The notes below the pieces were generated by a model. The model was not told the DNA's origin. It searched no databases and saw only the letters and a program-made list of their open reading frames with translations. From contig JAJZPI010000022.1 in assembly GCA_021811275.1 (NCBI GenBank), positions 1 through 33,962 of the forward strand: a stretch of 33,962 nt of DNA, read 5' to 3'. Position numbers and translations under genes: made by a program. The stretch is from Deltaproteobacteria bacterium (GTDB lineage: Bacteria; Desulfobacterota; Desulfarculia; Desulfarculales; Desulfarculaceae). This document shows positions 249-1,639 of the stretch, in pieces. How positions within the stretch are numbered: position 1 is the stretch's first letter; each line of letters begins with the position of its first letter.

Positions 249-851
249 TTAGATCTCGTTTTTCATAAGGCGGAAGGCCTCCAGCACCTTGCGAGCGGTG
301 TCGGCGAGCTTTTGGTTGTGGGCCCGGCTGTAGCGTTGCAACATGCGCATGGCCTCGGGCTCGCTCATCCCGCTCACCTCCATGATGACCCGCTTGGCCT
401 CCTCCACCAGGGGCCGGTTCTCCATCTCCTTGCGCAGGCTGAAAAGCTGGTCCTGCAGGTCCCAGACCCTGAGCTGGCAGGCCAGGGCCACCTCCATGGT
501 GGCGCGCACCTGGGCCGCGGAAAATGGCTCCACCAACAGTCCCAGGGCTCCGGTCAGACGGCAGGCCTGTATCACCTCGTCGTCCAGGGAGCCGGCCGCC
601 AGGACCACGCCAAAGCGCTCGGGGGGCAGCGATGGAGACAAGTCATTTATTTCATGGGCGGTAAAGAGACTGATATCCCAAAAGAGCATAGCGCGGGAGG
701 GCAAGGCCTCCTCTTCGGAGAGGTCCTCGGCCTGGCGGACCACCGGCATTTCGCCGAAAGAGGCCAGGCAAGGCATCAGCGCGGCCCGCAGGGACGAACC
801 GGGCTTTTGGAGCAAGCAGATTTCTACGTGGTCCATAACTGGGGCCGGCAT
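249..851 (-). CDS. ANTAR-domain response regulator (RNA-binding antiterminator)
   Basis: The C-terminal ~55 residues (RPLVEEAKRVIMEVSGMSEP through KVLEAF) are a typical ANTAR domain, the three-helix RNA-binding module of AmiR, NasR and EutV that suppresses terminators in target mRNAs. The N-terminal ~120 residues look like a receiver domain: an Asp in FWD at about residue 54 (counting from the ATG at 836) sits where the phosphoacceptor belongs. However, the early acidic pair is missing, and the conserved Lys before Pro-Phe is Glu (VEPF), so phosphorylation may be lost. The frame is open up to 1043, but that upstream part is leader RNA containing a terminator. ATG 851 or ATG 836 is therefore the likely start, although neither has a good ribosome-binding site. 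The gene stands alone and stops with TAA at 249. Confidence 0.85.
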   Translation of the reverse strand: MPAPVMDHVEICLLQKPGSSLRAALMPCLASFGEMPVVRQAEDLSEEEALPSRAMLFWDISLFTAHEINDLSPSLPPERFGVVLAAGSLDDEVIQACRLTGALGLLVEPFSAAQVRATMEVALACQLRVWDLQDQLFSLRKEMENRPLVEEAKRVIMEVSGMSEPEAMRMLQRYSRAHNQKLADTARKVLEAFRLMKNEI

Positions 852-856
852 TGGGA

Positions 857-940
857 AAATAATAAAAAAGCCCCTCGAGCGGCTCAAAGCCACCGAGGGG
901 CGGTCATGACCCCTGGCGCCCGTCACTCGGGACCGGCACC
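857..940 (-). promoter_or_regulatory. Structured leader with terminator/antiterminator upstream of the ANTAR gene
   Basis: Reading leftward from 940, GGTGCC (940-935) can pair with GGCGCC (920-915). AGGGG (914-910) can pair with CCCCT (900-896). A long stem then begins: CCCCTCGGTGGC (900-889) pairs with GCCGC and CGAGGGG (ending at 871), with one bulged base. It is followed by a T-rich run to about 857 and then directly by the ATG at 851. The second pairing uses the 5' arm of the terminator, so the two are mutually exclusive. This has the layout of an attenuator. The hairpin loops do not match the published paired AxxGxx hexaloop of ANTAR targets exactly, so control by the ANTAR protein itself is inference. 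Confidence 0.7.
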
Positions 941-946
941 GCAGGC

Positions 947-976
947 ATAATATCCATTTTGCAACGGTCAGGTCAA
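947..976 (-). promoter_or_regulatory. Sigma70-type promoter for the ANTAR gene
   Basis: Reading leftward, TTGACC (976-971) is followed after 18 bases by TATTAT (952-947). This is close to the sigma70 consensus and predicts transcription starting near 940. That position is exactly where the first leader hairpin begins, about 90 bases before the start codon. Confidence 0.65.
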
Positions 977-1105
977 CCTTCAACTGGACGGGCCGAATCC
1001 ATCGAGGCCGCACGGGAGCGGCGCGGCGGGCGTATAGTAGCATTAGAAAGTTAGGCGTTCATCCACGCACACCAATTAACGTTCAACGAGTAGTTTGGGC
1101 GCTAA

Positions 1106-1292
1106 TTGGCATGCGGGCCAAGAATCCACCCCAGCCAACAAGCTGGCTGGGGACCATGGGGGATGGCCCGCCGAGCGCGCCCGCGCTCGCGAGGCAGGGC
1201 AAAACCGGGGGTCCCTACAAAGCTCGCTTTGTGGGGTCAAACCACGCTTTGGCCCTACCGACCGGCGATCAAAGCCATGAATGGCTTTGATC
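1106..1292. repeat. Cluster of five perfect inverted repeats upstream of yajD
   Basis: This spacer holds no convincing gene but contains successive perfect palindromes: TTGGC/GCCAA (1106-1121), CCCCAGCCA/TGGCTGGGG (1129-1152), CGAGCGCG/CGCGCTCG (1172-1189), a stem around ACAAAG/CTTTGT extended by CCC/GGG (1213-1236), and GATCAAAGCC/GGCTTTGATC (1267-1292). None is followed by a T-run, so they are not ordinary terminators. They could be a structured RNA, dispersed intergenic palindromes, or remnants of small mobile repeats. The last lies 30 bases before the yajD start codon. The stretch from 977 to 1105 shows no other feature. Confidence 0.7.
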
Positions 1293-1321
1293 ACATATTG
1301 GCATCAGGGGAGGCTGAAGCC

Positions 1322-1639
1322 ATGCGCAGGCCCAGACGCTACGAGGAGCAGCCCGCCGGCGGGCATACGCCCGGCGCCACGGGCAAGCCGTTGGAGGAAC
1401 TGGTGCGAGGTTGGCGGGCCCGGCCTCCGGAGAGGCAGGCCTACCGCGAGCAGTCGCTGGCCATCCACGGGCTCATCTGCGCCAAATGCGCGCGGGAATT
1501 CGATTACAAGGACCGCCACCTGCTCACCGTCCACCACAAGGACGGCAATTGGAAGAACAACCCGCCCGACGGCTCCAACTGGGAGAACCTCTGTGTCTAT
1601 TGCCACGACGACGAGCACTCGCGGGGGTCGTCAACTTGA
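1322..1639 (+). CDS. yajD: YajD-like HNH nuclease family protein
   Basis: The 105-residue product matches the small HNH-fold YajD family closely in its second half. CAKC (53-56) and CVYC (91-94) form the zinc-binding knuckles, LTVHHKDG (68-75) carries the catalytic-type His pair, and NPPDGSNWENLC with CHDDEH completes the beta-beta-alpha-metal fold. The family is widespread and its cellular role is not established; a nucleic-acid cleavage activity is assumed from the fold. ATG 1322 was chosen because AGGGGAGG lies 8 bases upstream, although the frame is open to 1106. The first ~35 residues are extra relative to E. coli YajD. It stands alone between a palindrome-rich spacer and the MBOAT gene. 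Confidence 0.85.
   Translation: MRRPRRYEEQPAGGHTPGATGKPLEELVRGWRARPPERQAYREQSLAIHGLICAKCAREFDYKDRHLLTVHHKDGNWKNNPPDGSNWENLCVYCHDDEHSRGSST

Follow-up and report, generated by a model that had tools for sequence, protein, structure and literature searches.

A strong predicted terminator in the leader of a diverged ANTAR gene and its possible role in attenuation

The ANTAR gene and its surroundings

The window analysed here, the whole stretch of 33,962 nucleotides, corresponds to contig C80 of a 3.95-Mb draft genome. Near one end of it, the minus strand carries a gene for a protein with an ANTAR domain, while the region upstream of its leader is occupied by a repeat and by genes on the opposite strand.

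249..836 (249..851 with an alternative ATG), minus strand: ANTAR gene, recognised by PF03861, homologue start alignment and a codon model
1071..1308, plus strand: copy of an interspersed repeat of about 240 bp with ACCAAT/ATTGG-type ends, upstream of the leader
1322-1639, plus strand: small HNH gene, upstream of the ANTAR leader

An MBOAT gene, also on the plus strand, lies upstream of the leader as well. On the minus strand upstream, codon-model prediction detected neither a gene running toward the leader nor any trace of a lost one, so that no upstream gene needs the leader terminator described below.

Both the ANTAR open reading frame and its ANTAR domain are intact. The first ATG, at 851-849, would give a product of 200 residues, and the second, at 836-834, one of approximately 195; homologue starts align with the latter, which is also the start selected by the codon model. 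A Shine-Dalgarno sequence is absent at both starts (836 and 851) and present in 62% of confident genes. The product is composed of a diverged N-terminal receiver-like domain and a C-terminal ANTAR domain, the latter assigned to PF03861 with 60.1 bits against a curated cut-off of 27.3 (E=1.8e-16, Pfam), and its solved structural relatives are 1s8n, 6wsh and 4akk. This two-part architecture is shared with AmiR-type ANTAR proteins that carry a pseudo-receiver. Unlike these, the window protein does not exceed 40% identity, even when compared with homologues from its own bacterial family, no NCBIfam model matches it, and the EutV contact residues Tyr164, Arg168, Met172 and Arg175 are replaced. In the alignment with EutV, Arg142, Lys149 and Glu160 are kept, while Tyr164 is changed to Met, Arg168 to Gln, Met172 to Arg, Asn173 to Ala, Arg175 to Asn and Arg177 to Lys. 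Most of these changes, including the loss of Tyr164, Arg168 and Met172, are common to the ANTAR subfamily to which the protein belongs. Across this subfamily, the protein alignment also revealed a conserved WD motif in the receiver-like domain, with WN in one homologue (L013) as the exception, and the domain resembles a pseudo-receiver in which the Asp is retained.

The repeat upstream of the leader belongs to a non-coding family (L053-L063) with ACCAATTAGCG.../...ATTGGTAT-type ends and internal palindromes, found at no fewer than 40 places in the genome with 77-91% identity, mostly between genes; the alignment comprised 28 longer copies from 47% of the genome. The element is MITE-like. Another copy adjoins the ANTAR paralogue of the same genome (L029). 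The repeat was considered as a direct cause of the promoter change discussed below and rejected, its edge lying about 95 bp above the -35 element.

The leader and its comparison with relatives

Between the repeat and the ANTAR gene, the following leader elements were found.

976-947, minus strand: sigma70-type promoter TTGACC-18-TATTAT, 10/12 match, upstream of the terminator
940-915, minus strand: hairpin P1 with a six-base loop CCGAGU (not AxxGxx), -15.3 kcal/mol
914-896, minus strand: alternative hairpin AGGGGU/GCCCCU with a seven-base loop CAUGACC, -8.1 kcal/mol
884..907, minus strand: seven-codon mini-ORF MTAPRWL overlapping the 5' arm of the terminator, a weak candidate for a leader peptide
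856..901, minus strand: intrinsic terminator with a perfect stem (901-870) and a U-rich tract (869-856), -27.9 kcal/mol
887-859, minus strand: second promoter-like site TTGAGC-17-TATTAT, 9/12 match, inside the terminator

The sigma70 promoter and the two upstream hairpins are present as the original prediction had described them. Its terminator also stands as a strong stem, with limits of 901-870 in place of the 900-871 first given; the U-rich tract, TTTTTTATTATTTT, ends four bases before the ATG at 851-849 and not six, as had been claimed. That description included neither the lack of a Shine-Dalgarno sequence nor the promoter-like site at 887-859. The alternative AGGGG/CCCCT pairing makes use of the terminator's 5' arm, so that the two structures are mutually exclusive, and folding predicts that P1 and the alternative hairpin form ahead of the completed terminator. 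With P1 ending at 915 and the alternative hairpin beginning at 914, no linker is left. The mini-ORF was judged weak as a leader peptide, an AGGGG preceding its ATG by just 2 nt. No Rfam family reached its gathering score in the window; the leader's single hit, to anti-hemB, has 16.6 bits where the gathering score is 49.5, and is at chance level.

The weight of these elements was assessed against the genome's own background, with counts referring to codon-model genes in 1.85 Mb, or 47% of the 3.95-Mb draft. At a threshold of 10/12, promoter matches turned up in 10% of 232 divergent upstream regions, whereas 232 coding controls drawn from this genome gave none, an enrichment that makes the site at 976-947 credible. 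The leader terminator is the strongest among 282 divergent gene leaders in the 1.85 Mb and is unusual for this genome. As a whole, the leader folds with z = -4.45, none of 200 dinucleotide shuffles being as stable. Among 113 genomic terminators, a competing hairpin of this strength was found at six, a P1 of this strength at four and a combined pre-terminator fold of this strength at nine; by this measure, both P1 and the competing hairpin stand out only mildly. On these counts, the terminator and the promoter are credible, while the alternative pairing constitutes weaker evidence.

The search for homologues gave proteins of 28-40% identity in 16 further genomes of the bacterial family, together with the one paralogue in the window's own genome, and the upstream regions of all of them were read (L005-L019, L021 and L029). 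These belong to the same protein subfamily as the window gene, and their control regions are of a different kind: a sigma54-type promoter (TGG-N8-TTGC) lies approximately 40-49 nt before the start, with 7/7 key bases in the 16 homologues and 6/7 in the paralogue, followed by a strong Shine-Dalgarno sequence, most often AAAGGAGG. The window gene has neither this -24/-12 promoter nor a Shine-Dalgarno sequence; a decayed sigma54 site was sought in its leader, and the best candidate scored only at the background median. Conversely, a comparable leader terminator is absent upstream of the 16 homologues and the paralogue, and a DNA search with the window leader returned only chance-length matches across the family's 19 other genomes and the rest of its own. 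As none of these genomes gave a similar leader, it is a property of the window paralogue and not of the family. A lack of hairpin conservation in orthologues had been named among the refuting results; the 16 homologues and the paralogue show such a lack, and searches for closer orthologues returned only distant planctomycete ANTAR proteins from assembled genome contigs and none from viral contigs. The branch of the window copy in the protein tree is unresolved and long, at 1.87 where the median is 0.46. The predicted terminator can be regarded as real and as specific to this species among the genomes searched, and the family comparison, as read from these upstream regions, speaks against a conserved attenuator.

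Readings of the leader

The original prediction had interpreted the leader as an autoregulatory attenuator. What endures of it is a terminator that lies in the leader behind a credible promoter and is exclusive with an upstream hairpin; the control by ANTAR proteins does not. The known ANTAR-controlled terminators of amiE in Pseudomonas aeruginosa, nasF in Klebsiella and eutP/G/S/A in Enterococcus faecalis have the same order of hairpins as the window leader, with P1 followed by a hairpin overlapping the terminator's 5' arm and then by the intrinsic terminator, and they are likewise linked to an ANTAR protein. In the window leader, the second hairpin both overlaps and excludes the terminator, as in an ANTAR target. 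Nonetheless, the window terminator precedes the ANTAR gene itself, and ANTAR binding to this leader is only hypothetical. Two hexaloops, each with A1 and G4, are a requirement of the known ANTAR leaders (PMC8934654; PMC3369936). The loops of P1 and of the second hairpin, CCGAGU and the seven-base CAUGACC, are unlike the paired AxxGxx motif, as had been noted at the outset, and a dual-hexaloop scan of the window leader, requiring stems of 4 bp or more, detected no AxxGxx hexaloop. A scan for ANTAR targets upstream of the codon-model genes of the 1.85 Mb (47% of the genome) yielded a sole candidate (L097), which was rejected because its fold is not a dual hexaloop and it overlaps the start of a divergent gene. 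The linker between P1 and P2 in eut leaders comprises 5-12 nt, and one of 3 nt drastically lowers induction (PMC3369931); the window leader falls short of the approximately 5-12 nt of an ANTAR target. In its predicted folds, the topology of ANTAR leaders fits and their recognition features do not.

Autogenous antitermination, in which this or another ANTAR protein would bind P1 and the 914-896 hairpin, block the terminator and raise its own synthesis, is thus unsupported as a mechanism. In its favour are the P1 and P2-like layout, the fact that the controlled gene is itself an ANTAR gene, and the precedent of AmiR, which is encoded within the operon whose leader it controls (PMC3369936). The recognition could also be a variant, considering that contact residues differ across the subfamily. 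Even so, neither hairpin has an AxxGxx hexaloop, the two loops are dissimilar and no linker separates them, and no such leader occurs at any homologue or at the paralogue of the same genome, which leaves this explanation very unlikely. EutV Tyr164, Arg168 and Met172 are among the residues contacting G4 and the loop, and a subfamily that lacks them may possibly have a different recognition code. That a diverged ANTAR subfamily reads such a hairpin code here and that the paralogue switches itself by positive feedback is a long shot.

The nearest rival holds that the 976-947 promoter makes an independent terminated RNA of about 80 nt, with the ANTAR gene transcribed from the 887-859 site as a leaderless mRNA whose first base would be at, or adjacent to, the 851 ATG. 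Transcription from this 9/12 site would start at about 852, which would also explain why neither start codon has the Shine-Dalgarno sequence seen in 62% of confident genes. Against it, the -35 element TTGAGC matches at only 4/6 positions, the -10 element sits in the U tract, a setting in which matches of this kind are easily produced, homologue starts align with 836 and not with 851, and the anti-hemB match gives an independent RNA no more than chance-level similarity. We regard this arrangement as plausible and rather unlikely. It is also unlikely that the terminator is an insulator or a relic, stopping stray transcription from the repeat and HNH region or remaining from a lost gene without any regulation of the ANTAR gene. 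The plasticity of a region beside an interspersed repeat, the restriction of the leader to this genome, and the long branch and missing Shine-Dalgarno sequence of the ANTAR gene would agree with such an origin; the intact reading frame and domain, the credible sigma70 promoter pointing into the terminator and the minus strand's lack of any trace of an upstream gene would not.

The explanation that we prefer, tentatively and with somewhat less than even confidence, is that an ANTAR paralogue that diverges fast and is specific to this species among the genomes searched has lost the sigma54 control of its family and gained a sigma70 promoter and a leader terminator through which read-through is regulated. 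The leader has the generic layout expected of an attenuator, namely a promoter, a strong leader terminator and a predicted exclusive fold. Given that its terminator is the strongest of 282 and that no upstream gene needs it, attenuation, or a short terminated RNA, is a fair reading of the leader. The stability of the whole-leader fold, the enrichment of promoter matches, the competing hairpin, the different layout of the homologues and the long branch were also counted in favour of attenuation. Counted against it were the lack of a similar leader in the 19 other genomes of the family, an alternative hairpin (-8.1) far weaker than the terminator (-27.9), the missing Shine-Dalgarno sequence, and the promoter-like site inside the terminator, which could bypass it.

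Under the preferred explanation, the paralogue would have lost both the family's sigma54 promoter and its Shine-Dalgarno sequence, with the sigma70 promoter driving transcription instead. RNA polymerase would start near 940 and make P1 and the 914-896 hairpin; unless the latter were held, the terminator at 901-870 would form and transcription would stop at about 860. We infer that such termination occurs in the cell, where a strong stop just ahead of the ANTAR gene probably keeps it mostly off. Some factor could stabilise the 914-896 hairpin or block the terminator's 5' arm, allowing more read-through, and this trigger is probably not canonical ANTAR binding. Lacking a Shine-Dalgarno sequence, even the read-through RNA would be poorly translated or would depend on a different route of translation. 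Positive feedback exerted through such a terminator has a precedent, AmiR lying in the operon that it antiterminates. If true, the preferred explanation would indicate that a regulator paralogue has exchanged sigma54 control of initiation for control of termination, and the locus would serve as a test case for diverged ANTAR domains using a code other than AxxGxx.

Control regions of the sigma54-type homologues

Additional features were observed around the homologues. Paired TTTCGGTAA / TTACGGTAA motifs occur upstream of the sigma54-type promoters, about 90-170 nt before the start (L010, L012-L019 and others), and are likely sites for a sigma54 activator; the window gene has no such motifs upstream. 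The sigma54-type ANTAR gene is divergent from a lytic transglycosylase-like gene in the genus to which the window belongs (L005, L007; G001-G003) and is preceded by a polyprenyl synthase-like gene in the majority of other genera, both neighbour labels having been read from predicted proteins alone. The Shine-Dalgarno sequence of the homologues and paralogue often lies inside an inverted repeat, the stem reaching 6 bp or more in 10 of these 17 related, non-independent sequences, compared to 11% of the Shine-Dalgarno genes in this genome. Seven members of a single clade have AAAGGA as the loop of this hairpin, with A1 and G4 as in the ANTAR hexaloop, and such hairpins may possibly serve in translational autocontrol.
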